Below are positions 4,256 through 44,261 of a stretch of DNA of 64,000 bases, in pieces (within the stretch, counting starts at the first letter, position 1; every line of letters starts with the position of its first letter). The notes below the pieces were generated by a model that saw only the letters and a program-made list of their open reading frames with translations, searched no databases and had not been told where the DNA came from. The translations under genes and the position numbers were made by a program. Origin of the DNA: Owenia fusiformis (lineage: Eukaryota; Annelida; Polychaeta; Sabellida; Oweniidae); NCBI GenBank assembly GCA_903813345.2, contig CAIIXF020000012.1:8023615-8087614 (forward strand), in the 5' to 3' direction.

Positions 4256-4918
4256 GTGTATATGCATGTATTTATTTATATATTTGTCTCCTCTGGTCCC
4301 CAGTCCCCAGTCCCCAGTAGTTATATAATATTTATATCAGTCCCCAGTCCCTCCTTTATATATGTTTGTGCATATGCATTTACATGTATTTATATATTTG
4401 TCTCCTCTGGTCCCCAGTCCCCAGTCCCCAGTAGCTATATATATATTTATATCGGTCTCCAGTCCCTCCTTTATATATGTTTGTGCATATGCATTTACAT
4501 GTATTTATTTATATATTTGTCTCCTCTGGTCCCTGAGTCCCCAGTCCCCAGTAGCTATATATATATTTATATCGGTCTCCAGTCCCTCCTTTATATATGT
4601 TTGTGTATATGCATATACATGTACTTATTTATATATTTGTCTCCTCTGGTCCCCAGTCCCCAGTCCCCAGTAGCTATATATATATTTATATCGGTCTCCA
4701 GTCCCTCCTTTATATATGTTTGTGTATATGCATATACATGTACTTATTTATATATCTGTCTCCTCTGGTCCCCAGTCCCCAGTCCCCAGTAGCTATATAT
4801 ATATTTATATCAGTCTCCAATCCCTCCTTTATATATGTTTGTGTATATGCATATACATGCATCTATTTATATATTAGTCTCCTCTGGTCCCCAGTCCCCA
4901 GTCCCCAGCTACTTTATA
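4256..4918. repeat. Tandem array, about 118-bp units, left arm of foldback element
   Basis: About six direct units each contain CTCCTCTGGTCCCCAGTCCC, a TATATATATTTATATC stretch and CCAGTCCCTCCTTTATATAT. The same units occur in opposite orientation at 5270-5812. Long ORFs through the array are an artefact of the repeat period and are not genes. Confidence 0.9.
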
Positions 4919-4924
4919 TATAGG

Positions 4925-5252: not shown

Positions 5253-5269
5253 CCTATATATATATATAG

Positions 5270-5812
5270 TAACTGGGGACTGGGGACTGGGGACCAGAAG
5301 AGACTAATATATAAATAGATGCATGTATATGCATATACACAAACATATATAAAGGAGGGATTGGAGACTGATATAAATATATATATAGCTACTGGGGACT
5401 GGGGACTGGGGACCAGAGGAGACTAATATATAAATAGATGCATATATATATGCATATATACAAACATATATAAAGGAGGGACTGGAGACCGATATAAATA
5501 TATATGTAGCTACTGGGGACTGGGGACCAGAGGAGACAGATATATAAATAAGTACATGTATATGCATATACACAAACATATATAAAGGAGGGACTGGAGA
5601 CCGATATAAATATATATATAGCTACTGGGGACTGGGGACTGGGGACCAGAGGAAACAAATATATAAATAAATACATGTAAATGCATATGCACAAACATAT
5701 ATAAAGGAGGGACTGGAGACTGATATAAATATATATATATATAACTACTGGGGACTGGGGACTGGGGACCAGAGGAGACAAATATATAAATAAATATATG
5801 CATATACACATT
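5270..5812. repeat. Tandem array, inverted copy, right arm of foldback element
   Basis: Reverse-complement units of the 4256-4918 array (ACTGGGGACTGGGGACCAGA and so on), about five copies. Together the two arrays can form a very long hairpin. Confidence 0.9.
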
Positions 5813-20846: not shown

Positions 20847-22587
20847 TATATACATTATATATATTATATAGATATTATGAATATGTTTTTCGTTGTAGAG
20901 TAAAGGTTGATGATAAAATAATTCTATTCTTATATTGCAAATGGCAGGGAATTGAATTTTTGAGAAATAAAAAGACGTGGACATTTTGTCATGCAGTCAT
21001 GAAATATAGCAAATTAACGATAGAAACATATTTTCAAATTTTGAATTGGGGCTTTAAGGTAAAACTACAATGTCGACCGACTTTTTCCTAAAATTAATGA
21101 TTTCTTAAATAAATCAAGGTGAAAGATATACTAATGTATACAAAATATGAAAGATTGACTGTTTATTAATTTCAGAAAATTAAAAAATGTTTTAAATTAA
21201 TATTGCTCTCAATGGGAAATTCCTTTTTATTTGAAAGCACAAATAGCACAATGAAGATCTTCTTCAAAAAATTGTGATCGATTCATTCTATGAGACTACA
21301 TAAGTGTTTAAAATAATATATCTGAAAATTCACCGTTCGGATCTTGATTTTTTTTGAATATCATGAATCAGTGGGAACATGTTATTAACCCATTCTATAT
21401 AATGAGTTATAATGCCCAAAAAAGTCTTGACAGATCAACATGAGTGTGTTATGTGAAACGATATCGAGAAAATGTATTGTTGCGTTTAAATTATGAAAAA
21501 GTAGATTCTGCCGGTTTTTGAACCCAGTCTCTCGAGGTTTAAAAACATTAAAAAAACAGGGCCTTAATATGTGCGTCATGCTGCATTTCAACATCCGGAA
21601 CATTTTCAAATCAACATATATGAATCTTTACATCAGATCCAGTTTTTGGTATAAGAGATGCGCGAACTGACTGCGCAATAAACATTGAACTATTTTTGGT
21701 GATTGATGTAATGAATATATAGGCTATAGTTGTCCCGTATGAATTGCATTCAATTCTCTCTCCCTAAATAAAATTAAACGACTTCAGAGTTGGAAGGTTG
21801 CAGTACAGTTTGTACATTGTATATTTTGCTTTCCGTAGTTTTATATTAACCACGCTGCAATATAATCTCCCAAATCATGATTTCGTCTTTTTAACAATAT
21901 GTTTTATATAGAACTGAATGGCTTCTTTTACTTCGTTGACATCGACGTTCAGTGTAGATTCACAACCGAACTGCGAGGATACACCATGATAATGATGACC
22001 GAGGGAAATTGCTAACTCTCTGTAGCATAAATTCAGATGAGGATGGTTACACACTATCTCAATCACAAACAAACCCGGAGTAGAAAACAAAGTGTTCGCT
22101 AGTCCAGCTCCATGTGGTGCAACCACGAGTCTGGCTTGGTGGAACAATTTTCTCGTGTCAGAGAATGATGGAAGGTTGTCGTCTGCGTAAATGAAAAGTT
22201 CCATATCGTTCTGTTTCGCAATATCATTGAGAAATGAAGCTATTTCGTCGTGCTGAACTAAAATTCTATGTTTGGTCCTTTTTATTAAGATAATATAGTT
22301 TTTGGGTGGTATAGGTATACTTGGACTTATGTATTTATTTAACTCCTTCGACATCTGATATACTCCCGATACGGGGTATTTATACATACCACAGGGCGTA
22401 CCTTCCGGGAAATACACTCTAGCTGCGAGTATTGGTCCAATTGTATCACATATTACCAGTTCAGATATATTTCTAGAGGGAAATAGAGTCTGGAGTAGGG
22501 TGGTCCAAAATATGGCGAAAAACCAACTTTCTTTCGGATCATCTTCCTCATTTGACTTACTGTTGTCCATGACCTAAAACACCTACA

Positions 22588-23010
22588 CACCAAATTTTGA
22601 GACCCAAATCCCATGGGAAATTTACCCACGCTTCGACTGAAAAATTCGGTTATTTCATGATTTTTTGCTATTTTCGATAAATTGCCATCTCCTTTTTCCT
22701 GGTATAAAATGTTTCTATTTTTTCATAATAAACATTTTTGTAGGACTCTTTATTACTTAATAATACTAGGAGCACAAACACCAAATTTTGAGACCCAAAT
22801 CCCTTGTAAAATTTACCCATGGTTTGACTGAAAAATTGTGATTTTCACATTTTTTCCGATTTTCAATAAATTGCTGTCTCCATTTTCCTGGTACGATATG
22901 TTTTTATAATAAACATTTTTGAGGACTCTTTATTACTTCATAATACTAAAAACCCATACACCAAATATCCACCAAATTTTGAGACCCAAATCCAATGAGA
23001 ACGTTACCCA
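22588..23010. repeat. Subterminal tandem repeats, left side of hAT-like element
   Basis: About three copies of a roughly 190-bp unit with CACCAAATTTTGAGACCCAA, TTTACCCA and TAATAAACATTTTTG; inverted relatives fill 23970-24775. Confidence 0.8.
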
Positions 23011-23969
23011 TGCTCTGACTGAAAACTGGTGCTAATGATAGCTTATGATGTCTGTTTTAGGGGCATAATATGTTAATAAACATTATGGTAATTCCTTCTT
23101 AATCCAAAGAAACACCTGAATATCAAGACTTTAAGTCTTATTGAAAGGCGACAAATTTAGTAGAAAATTTAGGATCTTTTACTTGTACATTTATATACTG
23201 TGGTTAATATTAAGAAGTGATGACTCGACAGCAACTCAAATGCCTTGAAGATTTGGTTTGTTGGTTTCAGTAGGGATACATCACAGGACTTTGTTTGGAT
23301 TTGTGTGAGATGTCATATTCTTTCTCACATCTTTGCAGGGTAAGGTCAAATATCAAATCTGATTTTCTTTGGAGAAATGATTTTTTGATTGATCAATGTA
23401 TCAATTAATGGCATGGTCTCTGTTGTAACCAGTAAGCCTGTACCAAATCTTCAAGGGATTCGAGCTTCCACTGAGCTTGGTCATTTCTGTGAAAATGTTC
23501 ATGCCCTGAAAGTACACTATGTAGAAGATAGGAAGAGCAATGAGAAACACTTAAGGTAATTCTGTATGTTCAGAAATTTTAAGTGGAGTCCAATGTTATT
23601 TCTGGAACTCATTCCATAATTGGTCAGTTCTTTCAATTTTACACTGAGTTCAAATATGTATTTAGATTATTAGTTGATGGTTAGTAATTTTCTATAATGT
23701 ACTATGTGCTATGTTTATACACTGTTTGTGCATTTGAATGGAATGAGTTATGTGTTCCTGAAAAAACACGGGGCTCCAATTAGGAAGCCATTAAAACTGA
23801 AAATAAGGAATTACCTTAAAGTACTATATAACCATCTTTCACGATGTAACGTATGTAAGGCCAAACAGGATAATTAAGACAACGTGTAATACAATTTATT
23901 ACAAATTGCACATCACACAACAATGATATGGTGCTCTTAACGACAAAAATCAAAAGTATATGATCAAAG

Positions 23970-24775
23970 CAAACGTGAATTTCCCATGGGGTTCAGATCT
24001 AAACATTTGGTACATATTAAATGTATGGGTTCCTAGTATTAAGAACGTATTAATGTCCTCCTAAAATGTTTAAAAACTAAATATAAGATTAATGTTGATC
24101 TATTGAAACTAGGAGAAAATTCGCAGAAAATCACAAATTCTTGGTTGAAGCATGAATTAATTTCTCATGGGGCCAGGGTCTCAAAATTTGGTGCATATTT
24201 GGGGTATGGGTTCCTTGTATTATGAAGTAATAAAGAGTCCTCCCAAAATATTTATTATAAAAAATAGAAACATAATAATACCAGGAAAATAGAGATGTAT
24301 TGTATTGTATTGTATATGAAATAACCCAATTTTTCAGTCGAAGCGTGGGTAAATTTCCCATGGGATTTGGGTCTCAAAATTTGATGTATGGGTTCCTAAG
24401 TATTATGAAGTAATAAAGAGTCATCCAAAAATATTTATTATGAAAAGACATCTACCATTTTATACCAGGAAAATGGAGATGGCAATTTATCGAAAATAGC
24501 AAAAAATCATGAAATAACCGAATTTTTCAGTCGAAGCGTGGGTAAATTTCCCATGGGATTTGGGTCTCAACATTTGGTGTATGGGTTCCTAGTATTATGA
24601 AGTAATAAAGAGTCCTACCAAAATGTTTATTATGAAAAAATAGAAACATATTATACCAGGAAAAGGGAGATGACAATTTATCGAAAATAGCAAAAAATCA
24701 TGAAATAACCGAATTTTCAGTCGAAGCGTGGGTAAATTTCCCATGTGATTTGGGTCTTAAAATTTGGTGTGCAGG
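23970..24775. repeat. Subterminal tandem repeats, right side of hAT-like element
   Basis: About five copies, in the opposite orientation to the left set (TGGGTAAATTTCCCATGGGA, TTTGGGTCTCAAAATTTG). They explain the minus-strand ORF at 24131-24361, which is not a gene. Confidence 0.8.
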
Positions 24776-25775
24776 TGTTTTAGGTCATGGACAACAGTAA
24801 GTGAAATGAGGAAGATGATCTGAAACAAAGTTGGTTTTTCACCATATTTTGGACCACCCTAGTCTGGAGTGATGACTTCATGAACGAAGTGCAAGCGACA
24901 TATATTTTGATATCATTGCGTTTGTCTATAAATCTTATATATCGTGATAGTCTTGGGAGAGATTCCACCATTCCATGGTAAAACTCGCCTGACCAAAATT
25001 GTGTTATTACAAATACTTCTTCGTAACGGGGCAACTTATCCAGATTATCTTTAATTGTTGTCTTGAAATGTTCTTTAGAAGCTTGAATCCATTCGGGTCT
25101 GTCGAGACAACTATACGGTATAACGTGCAGGCCACCGACAAAAACCACACCATCTTTCGAGATGATTCCATTTTGTATTATATGAATGAAACTAGATATT
25201 GTCTCCATTTGGAATATTTCTTCTGTTAGTGTATAATTTAGTGGTAATTTGAATCGCTGTTTACGTTCAGGTTTCTGTGCGGAAAAGGTCTGCTCCATAT
25301 TTGTCGTACATGAGTTAGAATATGGTGTTTTAACTTTATTATCGGCAAGTGCCGTACATAAAGACTTGCTTCCTATCCATTGATATAAACCATACCCATC
25401 TTTGACAGAATCCATTATTTGAAAGAGCAACGTTTTAATATTATGCTCTGTGGCAATGTGAATAAAATAATCATCTCGACTTGAAGTAACGTCTTTGAAT
25501 TCGCCAGATTGGGGCATTATAAAATGACCCTCCCGAATCCTCGTCGATCTGTGTTCATCCAAATGTTGTTCTATCGTAACACGGTTGTCGGATATTGCAA
25601 TGAAATGTGAATGAATGTTAGCGTTTTGCTTTGAACTCGTGTGTGCCGGTTTGAAATGCTTACCTTGTGCTTTGTCAAACCAGATTTGTTTTAGCGCCAT
25701 TCCAATCACTGCAAGGCAAATGATAGACAGCATGATTTTCTTTAGATGCTTCATTCTAAATGTGCACAAAGACAC

Positions 25776-27540
25776 TTTTCTATTACGAGTAATCGTGTTT
25801 CGTATGATGCGAGATTACATTATCGAGTTGAAGAGTTGATTTGTATTGGGGAGTGTAAGAGATCCGCGTTGATTTGTTTAATGTGCTTTTGTACGTATGC
25901 CTGGGTAAACAATGATAACACGCGTGTCTTCAGTTTTCAGTGTTTTCAGTTCAGTGTTTTCGATTTCAGCTTATCTAAGTAATTAAGATCTACTTGTATA
26001 TTCCAATCATTTTGTTATGCAAACTAATAAAATCCAACGGATTGGTATCGATTTGGCGAACTGAATTTAACATTGATTTTCTTTTAAACCAATTATTGAA
26101 AACATTCTGTAAAAAACACAGATATTTATGCAATTATGCTCTGATTGACAACAGGTTATTGCGAAAATTAGTTAAATATATTTTTATAACTGTTTTTGTT
26201 AACTTTTTTCGATTTTTTAGTGCAATTATTTTTGTTCCTTTCTACCAATTCTTGAGAATGAAATAGAATATCGTTCCGAACCTTGTTTGAACAAAATAGC
26301 TTTCGTAGACCTCTCAATATTATAGTTGGCAAAATTTGGTTGATTTTAAAAAAAGTATTCAAAAAATTAAAACAAAACTCCAAAATAGATAAAAACCAAG
26401 AAAGTAAACCGTTTGTTTCATTAACAGGATACGTTTTTTAAATCAACCAAACTTTCCTTACAATATTGGGAGACCTAAACACGCTGTGTATATGTCGTTT
26501 TGTTCCAATGAGGTTCTGATAGATGTTTCGTGTCATTCCGAATATATGATACCACGAACAAAACACGTGTCAGATGTACTTTCTAAAACAATATAGAGAA
26601 AAGTATATATATATGCATTTCAATTTAAACTGTTACCATTCAAAAGAGGATTATCATGAGAAAATTTTCAGACTTAGAAACCTAGTGTGTTCAATTCAGT
26701 TCGCCATCGATATCAATCCTTTAAACAAAGGTTATAAGAAAAATGTCACTAAATTGGGTTACAAAGCAAATAGCTTCGCTTATAATTAGGATAACCTATA
26801 GAATTACGAGCCTTTTATATATAGCATCCTTATTATTTTGAAATAAAGTAATCTTGGAAATTTTGAAAATGAAACGATTTCATTTTGATGCGGTTGAAAA
26901 ATAGCATCACTTTAATGACTATTCGTCTTACTTACTGTATAAAAAGGAGGTGTAAAAAACGTGTCAATACAAAAATAGAACTATTTTTTTTCAAATCCTG
27001 ACATAACGATTTAATTTAACTCAGTATCCGTGTCCTTAAAATCTCGATATGTAGACAATTTACTGAGAAGATTGTTTCACCCACCTTTCCCTTCTGTTTA
27101 AGGTTATTTGTACTGTAGTTCATAGAATGAATTCCTAGAACGCCCAATAACGAAACCTAACCATCGACAACGTACGGTGACAAAATAAACCTTCGTACAT
27201 TTTAGATGTATGATGTCACTATTAACTGATTTGAAGCAAATACTATAGGTTTTAAAAATTTTATCTGCGGAATACATAACGGATTTCATTCTTATACCGT
27301 GTGTATTCTCTTAAAAATACTTTTAGCATTCCGATAACGTTTAAAGATTCTTAAGCAGCGCTTGATTTTTTGGAGTAAATTTACTCACAAAATTAATGGA
27401 AATGTTTTTTTCACATTTCACATCACATTTCCTTTGGTCATTCCCCCCCCCCCCCCCTGTCCCCTGTTTTATGAGATTTTTTTCACTAAACTAAACAATT
27501 TAGGATAACTGAAGATTTGATAAATATTATATATTGGGTA
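25776..27540. other. Upstream of the GT61 gene; no gene recognised
   Basis: AT-rich, with small unsupported ORFs. The proximal few hundred bases should include the GT61 promoter and 5' end, but no core motif stands out. A C-tract lies at about 27446. Confidence 0.4.
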
Positions 27541-36244: not shown

Positions 36245-37439
36245 CTATTTGATTTTGTTGAGATAGGACCAGAGAGGCCATAATTCATAATGATGTTCTT
36301 CCAGAGCAATAACATCCATTGCATATTTCAACACATAATCAAGCTGTTTTCCTTTAAATATCTTTTTCATCAGACCCACTATTTTCGACAGCCCATCAAA
36401 CGAGAGTGATACTCGAGGCAAATGTGCATCAATCTTATCGTTTACTTGGAAGTTAGAGTCCTGGGGCCAATTGCTGCGATCAATTCTATCACGCCGAGTC
36501 AAAAGCTCTTTCTTTTTGAGGGGAACGTTTGAAGATTTTTGATATTCATAAAGTTTCTGACTTATCAATCTTTCATCTATATAATTTGCAGTTGTGATTT
36601 CAGAGTTGACAATTGCACCAAAATTATCATAGTTTATTCTGTGAATTATTTGATCAATGCCTTTGACCTGGATTGTTTCTTCGTATTTTTCTTCACTTGC
36701 ATTGTTTACTCCATTGAAATAACTGTCTACTTTCATGACATCTTTCCATCGGTCCATGGTCATTGAGATATGACATATTGCATAATGCGGGATTTTAATT
36801 CCATCGAAGTCAAACGTTCCACAACAAAACGCATTTGTAATTAAGATCTCAGACAAACTATTGTAGTTCACGTAGTCTCTACCACTTTGTTCGAAAAGCC
36901 ACAAATCAGCGTCAGCCGTCATTATGATGTCATCGGGTTTCAAACCTGGGACGAAATACGCGACCAATAATCTTGATGTCATTGCCATCAATGCTTGAAG
37001 TTTATGCGTTGTTTCAAGAATAATCAATTTTACATTTGGGTCCATCCTTAAGTTATCATGAATTACTCTCAACGCTGGATTTGTTACCCATGTCGAATAA
37101 TTCCCAGTTATGACGACTATACTTTTAAAGTTAAGTTTGGCATACACCTGCACGGTAACCGGAAGGTAAAATGCATAACTCCAGGAAATGTCTCCATCAA
37201 TGGTTGGATCCGGAGTCGTTGTTGTCATGACAACATACTTTGTTATCGTTGTGGTATTCTTGGTTCCAAAGTCCTTAGCTCTAGTTTTTTTAAGTTCTTC
37301 ATTTTTGAGGCCAATCACATTGTGTGTGTTTTGTTTTGGGACGCGAAATTCATTTCGTATCTTTCCGTGAAGTGTATTCATGCTTTCTACAGCAAACTCT
37401 TCAGATTTGAGCCGTTTGTCAGGACTGTTTTTGTAAGAT
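36245..37439 (-). CDS. GT-A-like glycosyltransferase with DADLW motif, main/last exon
   Basis: Begins after an acceptor (TTCTTTTCAG) at 37440 with one leading base, then 397 codons and a stop; an ATG occurs at 37381 but the frame is open back to the acceptor, so an upstream exon with a start and probably a membrane anchor is expected and was not identified. SIVVITGNYSTWV looks like a first beta strand and nucleotide-binding segment, and DIIMTADADLWLFEQ supplies a DxD metal/nucleotide-sugar motif following a beta strand. HYAICHISMTMDRWKDVM and LPRVSLSFDGL follow, and the protein ends HYELWPLWSYLNKIK. I recognise the fold class, not a named family; substrate unknown. The frame is intact. Confidence 0.65.
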
Positions 37440-37710
37440 CTGAAAAGAATAAAACCATTACCCTAGAGACTAGTTACATAATTTTTCTAAGAGTTATATG
37501 AAATCACGATCTTCTATCAAGATGGGAACGTACACTCTCAAAAGGTTTGCGTGTAATGACACTTGGAAGAACGAGACAATTTGTTCAAATAATGGTGTTA
37601 ATTCATTTTATAACCCTACCTTATGCATAACTTATTCTTATTCTCTATTGACACGCTATAACTGGGTTTTATTCATTTGAACAATTGAAATGTATAGCAA
37701 CTAGAGGTTT

Positions 37711-43249: not shown

Positions 43250-44153
43250 TCAAGTGCTTGAGTATAATATTATGTTAAGTGTATACATTTCAAATGTTCC
43301 TGGTACATTATCAATTTTGTTTAATTTGTTTTTCAATAAAAATGAAATTTGGATCATTGAAATCAAATTTCCAATCATTACCTTTCTGATATCAACATAA
43401 TTATCACAACCCATAATAAAATGGTAAAGATTCTCTAATGAGTTATTATTACATTTCTTACACTCCCTATTTTCTCTAGGTAAAGCATTTTTGTTAATTT
43501 CTAAATTATATATACCACATAGTAACTTAATCATCATATTACATTTTTGCTGTAGAGTCCATAGAGTTTATATAAGATTGATGCAAATTTCTCAATAATT
43601 TCCCTTTAATACCAGCGTCATATATTTGAGCAAATAGTTCATCAATCCACACTGTGACATATGCTTTCTTTGTGTCTAAAAATGCAGCAACAATCTTACT
43701 TCTATTTTCAACATTATGAGCTATAGCCTCTCGGAGAAGAAGGGATGAGTGAAGAGAACTATATTTAATCTTATTAGCACCCTGTAACTCTGATATTGCC
43801 TGATAACTATGACCATACTTCAATTCCCTCTGAAGTAAAATCTCATCATATAGTTTACACAGTGATGATTGAAGTGTTATACGTCTGTAACTATCCTTAT
43901 CAAATTTCTTCTTTTTTCCTCCATTATATACTGGAATTATGACACCCCGTTTAAAGTTCTTGGGTAAATATTCTTCCTTAATCAACATATTAAATAGAAA
44001 TGCTATAGTTTTAAAAGTGTGATCACCAGCATACCAAAATTGTTCATATGGTATGCCATCATAACCTGGTGATTTGGCCTTAGGTAACTTATAACAGGAT
44101 TCCCTGACTTCACAGTACATTTTGAAATTGTGGAGAATCATGAACAGTTTCAT
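43250..44153 (-). pseudogene. Non-LTR retrotransposon reverse transcriptase, internally deleted
   Basis: Minus strand 44153-43539 carries typical RT blocks: YKLPKAKSPGYDGIPYEQFW, FKRGVIIPVYNGGKKKKFDK, SYRRITLQSSLCKLYDEILL and IVAAFLDTKKAYVTVW (first catalytic Asp present; the usual following Asp of AFDTVW is Val). The YADD block and everything up to the C-terminal knuckle are missing: after INSMDSTAKM a stop and frame change lead directly into 43537-43250 with CKKCNNNSLENLYHFIMGC, the post-RT zinc-knuckle-like region. The copy is dead. Clade not assigned. Confidence 0.85.
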
Positions 44154-44261
44154 TATCTATACACTTTATTAATATTTGCTTGAGTTGTGTTAATAGACCT
44201 TCCAGGGCTGTTGTATTTGGGCGATAATAAAAAATAAATACCCTTAATAAAATTGACGCAC

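Follow-up and report, generated by a model that had tools for sequence, protein, structure and literature searches.

Transposons of the hAT type are described as making 8-bp target duplications and as having terminal inverted repeats of 5-27 bp (PMC2874221), and the target rule nTnnnnAn is given for the hAT element Hermes (PMC2803484). Introners are introns derived from DNA transposons, which use bases of the duplication and can add codons; they were found in only two animal groups (PMC9860276). The window analysed here is a stretch of 64,000 nucleotides from Owenia fusiformis (C12:8023615-8087614), and the genome searched comprised 498 Mb in 525 contigs. In this window a gene resembling the GT61 glycosyltransferases is split by an inserted element. 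Insertion of a non-autonomous hAT-type element, inactivating one GT61-like copy, is the best explanation and in our judgement a highly probable one.

The split gene and the inserted element

The gene and the element consist of the following parts:

24862 to 25754, minus strand: 5' part of the GT61-like gene, from ATG 25754 and ending in one 8-bp copy of the target duplication
21875 to 22495, minus strand: 3' part of the GT61-like gene, including the natural stop and the match to PF04577 positions 18-134
22496 to 24861, plus strand: non-autonomous hAT-like element of 2366 bp, with no transposase frame found
22496 to 22515, plus strand: left terminal inverted repeat TAGGGTGGTCCAAAATATGG, 20 bases
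24842 to 24861, minus strand: right terminal inverted repeat, the same 20 bases as the left
22488 to 22495, no strand: left copy of the 8-bp target-site duplication GTCTGGAG
24862 to 24869, no strand: right copy of the 8-bp target-site duplication GTCTGGAG
22575 to 23025, plus strand: left subterminal array with units of about 190 bp
24123 to 24781, plus strand: right subterminal array with units of about 190 bp, inverted relative to the left array

The original prediction of an element at 22496-24861 with perfect 20-bp ends and a perfect 8-bp duplication was confirmed. The two ends are identical over 20 bp and agree at 56 of their first 60 bases, and the end sequence of the family is TAGGGTGGTCC. 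Judged by eye, the match between the ends extends to 35 bases in most of the other copies aligned. The perfect match is limited to 20 bp here because the window copy differs at base 21; the base following the right repeat (window position 24841) is T here and C in 20/20 other aligned copies.

After removal of the element and one duplicate, a single open frame of 501 amino acids was obtained on the minus strand, from ATG 25754 to a stop ending at 21875. The uninterrupted joined frame that had been predicted was thereby recovered, but not its length of 508 codons. That count (906 + 621 bases, 508 codons plus stop) begins at 25775, which is a GTG on the minus strand seven codons upstream of the ATG; ATG 25754 is aligned with the starts of the paralogues L001, L002 and L004. 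It had also been claimed that no other lesion was present, and the joined frame indeed contained no further stop or frameshift. Extra lesions relative to paralogues had been named as evidence that would speak against the reading, and the sole indel relative to L001 and L002 was one in-frame extra codon near residue 18.

The 3' part matched the Pfam profile PF04577 (GT61) with 52 bits (cut-off 27) over profile positions 18-134, and the 5' part alone had no Pfam match at 0.001. The 5' part showed amino acid identities of 80, 75, 75 and 60% to four paralogues on C12. The N-terminus of the split gene appeared by eye to be hydrophobic and membrane-anchor-like. Both the PF04577 match of the 3' part and the paralogue alignment agree with the predicted hAT-like insertion into an open GT61 frame. 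Without splicing, the upstream frame enters the element and stops at 324 amino acids, with its final 26 residues encoded by the element, and the downstream frame starts at an ATG within the element and has 231 amino acids.

PF04577 had 15 matches in the genome. The split gene is one of five close copies on C12, the others being L004 at 7.61, L003 at 7.84, L001 at 7.88 and L002 at 7.98 Mb, all on one strand, and a more distant paralogue lies on the opposite strand at 9.17 Mb. L001 and L002 are single-exon frames of 500 amino acids, and L004 is one of 507. Since L001 and L002 match profile positions 1-134 of 137 with the domain at residues 257-436, the insertion at codons 296-298 lies inside the PF04577 domain. 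The sequence HGAGL, a GT61 motif, was conserved in the paralogue alignment. The best solved relatives of L002 were POMGNT2 chains, with an E-value of about 4e-4 over about 105 residues. A literature search on GT61, POMGNT2, EOGT and invertebrate together found no paper joining them.

A search of the genome for an empty site had been proposed with the original prediction, and was carried out. The 152 bp across the junction aligned ungapped in L001, L002 and L004 at 94, 91 and 83% identity, with the 8-bp target present once and exact in L001 and L002, and once with one mismatch in L004. With these three ungapped paralogous empty sites the insertion is demonstrated. L003 was also ungapped across the site for 99 bp at 90%, up to its own break. 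All six candidates for an empty allele in the assembly were scored and none was nearer than the 94% paralogue, a result that leaves room for an empty allele in the animal. Additionally, 19 joined 152-bp sites of other element copies were queried. The best 40 of 4531 candidates were scored and all belonged to two copies, for which precise empty sites were found: L008 (13 places, 100%) and L011 (27 places, 99%). Both copies are located in repeats, and it is the empty versions of these repeats that were listed.

L003 (C12:7835100-7837500) is without its 3' half, and its frame meets 23 N at C12:7835848-7835870. The 3' half was absent beside L003 in the seven places listed by a protein search with the 3' part. 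A repeat starts about 40-45 bp beyond the L003 break, with 39 other scored places at 98-99% among 349 candidates; it is a high-copy repeat unrelated to the window element. A hotspot for damage near the same site was considered and rejected: the L003 break is 19 bp downstream of the equivalent of the window insertion site, behind the run of N and with a different repeat beyond it. The hotspot signal was dropped because two breaks so close together in 1500 bp are not very improbable. With the window copy and L003, two of the five close copies on C12 are disrupted, which fits ordinary birth-and-death turnover.

Elsewhere in the window, a high-copy repeat was found upstream of the 5' region of the gene at 26004-26100, and 34 of the 40 listed matches cover only its first 60-97 bases or so. 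The minus strand has a 271-amino acid open frame with the integrase core domain PF24764 at 929-1741, an open frame of 405 residues at 36245-37462 (possibly another single-exon gene) for which Pfam gave no match at 0.001, and a reverse transcriptase fragment at 43542-44156 with PF00078 just below the cut-off. Two arrays of a 119-bp unit are present at 4260-4922 and 5258-5792, and their consensus units look mutually inverted by eye.

The element family and its probable hAT affinity

The exact 20-base end occurred 145 times in the genome (75 forward and 70 reverse), and the reversed, uncomplemented 20-base control had no exact occurrence on either strand of the same genome. Based on these counts and on the three ungapped paralogous sites, the observed element is not a product of chance. 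A DNA search with the element scored 40 places among 173 candidates, and 20 other copies were fetched as a sample of the family. The duplications of these 20 were exact and 8 bp long in 15 copies and 9 bp long in two; the remaining three are one copy within a simple repeat and two whose ends are damaged. Divergence from the majority was 0.5-1.0% in 19 of the 20 and 3.9% in L010, with mostly private changes. Judged from these divergences, the pattern looks like a star-shaped burst. Over 2356 sites the window copy differed from the family majority at 21, of which 20 are private, and it had four private indels. The 19 other copies together had 290 private substitutions in 47,994 sites, on average below the rate of the window copy, and 42 private indels, 34 of them not a multiple of three. 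A block of 193 columns within the subterminal arrays was missing from the window copy and from L007.

As for hAT elements, an 8-bp target duplication was found in the window copy and in 15 of the 20 fetched copies, and the terminal inverted repeats are short (20 bp and perfect here, within the 5-27 bp given for hAT, though 35 bases in most other copies). The pattern nTnnnnAn was found in 13 of 16 eight-bp duplications, with T at position 2 in 14 and A at position 7 in 15; the 16 include the window copy and leave out L009, L010, L017, L023 and L024, which have no clean 8-bp duplication.

No long frame or transposase was found in the window copy. Nine hAT transposase loci, from 138 PF05699 matches, were read, and the family ends (first 16 bases, at most three mismatches) occurred at none of the nine. 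Two of these nine had TAG-starting 13-bp ends, TAGAGCTCTGATC and TAGGGCTGCCATC, with 8-bp duplications. By eye, none of the hAT transposase matches was enclosed by ends among the first 100 of the 145 end positions. For L027-L031 and L033 the frames of at least 90 amino acids were listed and three were scanned with Pfam, again with no transposase. The longer copies L027-L031 were considered as the autonomous partner and rejected, the 6.8-kb copy being enlarged by a reverse-transcriptase element and not by a transposase. A 93-residue open stretch inside many copies reached at best an E of 0.15 in Pfam, against a threshold of 0.001; it had 97 genome matches, mostly near-identical copies, of which only part were checked for family membership. 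An older relative at C1:37862734 had no transposase frame. Since no transposase was found, the element is called non-autonomous and hAT-like, and since none with these ends was found among the nine loci read, its hAT membership rests on ends and duplications.

Among the loci seen in these searches, L027 (C4:16781400-16788340) is a family copy with a nested retrotransposon that has a 1260-codon endonuclease and reverse transcriptase frame. L035 (C5:17920700-17927700) and L036 (C9:35662500-35669500) have the look of autonomous hATs: each has two long open frames and 13-bp ends, and their 8-bp duplications are GTACAAGC and ATCCAAGC.

Age of the insertion and fate of the gene

The branch to the split copy, estimated from pairwise distances over 500 codons, had a dS of 0.095, a dN of 0.048 and an omega of 0.51 (bootstrap 0.30-0.90; below 1 in 99% of bootstraps). 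The private divergence of the element, part of which may predate the insertion, was 0.0085, or about 9% of the dS of the gene branch, from which we infer that the insertion is much younger than the paralogue split. This supports an inactivation younger than that split, and to this extent the loss is recent as had been predicted. "Very" recent goes too far for a copy with 20 private substitutions and four indels; as it has more substitutions than the mean of the 19 other copies, the element has probably been in place for a measurable time. Free decay to that divergence would be expected to leave 0.51 nonsense changes and 1.1-2.5 frameshifts in a coding sequence of 1503 bp. The chance of no lesion was 0.21 with the family mean indel rate, 0.135 with an indel rate scaled to the substitutions of the window copy and 0.05 with its own four indels, so that the clean frame is only mildly notable. 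It fits a young but not brand-new loss, equally a polymorphic allele, and it leaves some room for persisting function. Some constraint is left on the branch, which would fit a branch that lies mostly before the insertion, but would also fit a partly persisting function.

Under the preferred explanation, the element would be a copy of a hAT-type DNA transposon family that recently spread through the Owenia fusiformis genome, and a transposase from elsewhere would have inserted it at GTCTGGAG in an intronless gene for a GT61-like glycosyltransferase, within the region of its PF04577 domain. The enzyme would most likely be abolished in the living animal: the upstream product of 324 amino acids, with its 26-residue element tail, would be without the PF04577-matching part, and the downstream product would be without the N-terminal anchor-like region. 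With intact paralogues still present, the loss is probably tolerated, as in the usual birth-and-death process of gene families.

The same insertion may, as the original prediction had suggested, be a segregating or heterozygous allele, with intact alleles common; this is compatible with the best explanation, and we put it forward tentatively as a realistic possibility. The youth of the family (a divergence from the majority of 0.5-1.0% in 19 of the 20 other copies) points in this direction, as do the clean frame and the constraint on the branch; the lack of an empty allele among the six scored places in the assembly points the other way, but weakly, as assemblies usually keep one allele. It could also be that the gene was already decaying and that the element landed in a pseudogene. 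The omega of the split copy was higher than that of L001 (0.23) and L002 (0.27) in 98 and 96% of bootstraps, as such decay would predict. However, neither gene part has a stop or frameshift and the branch omega is below 1, and we regard this course of events as unlikely.

Finally, the element could serve as a new intron, with a donor in its first bases and an acceptor formed by its other end and the duplication, giving a working enzyme of 503 or 508 amino acids. The hypothetical sites, suggested by general consensus weights not trained on Owenia fusiformis, are:

24857, minus strand: candidate splice donor AGG/GTGGTC (first intron base)
24842, minus strand: candidate second donor ATG/GTGAAA (first intron base)
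22489, minus strand: candidate splice acceptor CTCCAG/AC (first exon base), from the element end and the target duplication

These in-frame pairs lie at the very ends of the element and were the best of 35. By these weights, the donor at 24857 ranks within the top 9.1% and the donor at 24842 within the top 6.9% of GT sites in the window, and the acceptor ranks within the top 3.1% of AG sites. The best pair was rarely equalled by placement controls: random placement of the element in the frame did as well or better 21 times in 1000 (180 had no in-frame pair), and successive same-orientation placement 30 times in 1386, although the latter control tests mainly frame and acceptor, because the element's own donors stay fixed. 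The better donor (24842) depends on the T at window position 24841, a CpG to TpG change on the gene strand at the base by which this copy differs from 20/20 others. The nascent intron would thus have acquired a better donor, and the enzyme would survive with two or seven extra residues. The absence of other lesions (a chance of 0.05-0.21 under free decay) and the branch omega below 1 in 99% of bootstraps favour such an intron, and transposons spliced out with duplication bases and added codons are on record for Introners (PMC9860276). However, both donors are weak in absolute score, and the gene has far stronger GT sites, foremost AAG/GTAAGC at 25663 in the top 0.1%. The weights are not specific to this species, the pair search was post hoc, a CpG transition is a common kind of mutation, neither of the close paralogues L001 and L002 has an intron, and Introners are given for only two animal groups in PMC9860276. 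The splice evidence is therefore suggestive, post hoc and weak, and we consider both the new intron and its improvement by the CpG change very unlikely.

Comparison with known systems

Insertion of a hAT-type element into one GT61-like copy is a well-known kind of event and, apart from the splice reading, ordinary gene-family decay. The locus is a clean case of gene-family turnover by a young mobile element, complete with target duplication and paralogous empty sites, and the divergence within the element family allows the event to be dated in relative terms. Should the splice reading prove true, the locus would show intron gain in an animal at an early, observable stage; if not, the case is routine.

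The gene resembles the GT61 glycosyltransferases (PF04577; POMGNT2, EOGT) in its PF04577 match above the cut-off and in the HGAGL sequence of the paralogue alignment. It differs from the solved members in that L002 is only distantly related to them and the window copy is split. The element resembles non-autonomous hAT elements with a Hermes-like target rule in its nTnnnnAn 8-bp duplications, in its short inverted ends beginning TAGGG, in that no transposase of its own was found and in the precise empty sites, and it differs from them in the arrays of units of about 190 bp, inverted relative to each other, that lie inside its two ends. As described for Introners in PMC9860276, its inverted ends and target duplication could supply splice sites and add codons. 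In contrast to Introners, whose family median lengths are given there as 30-654 nt, the window element is 2.4 kb long, and it is one insertion with candidate splice sites.
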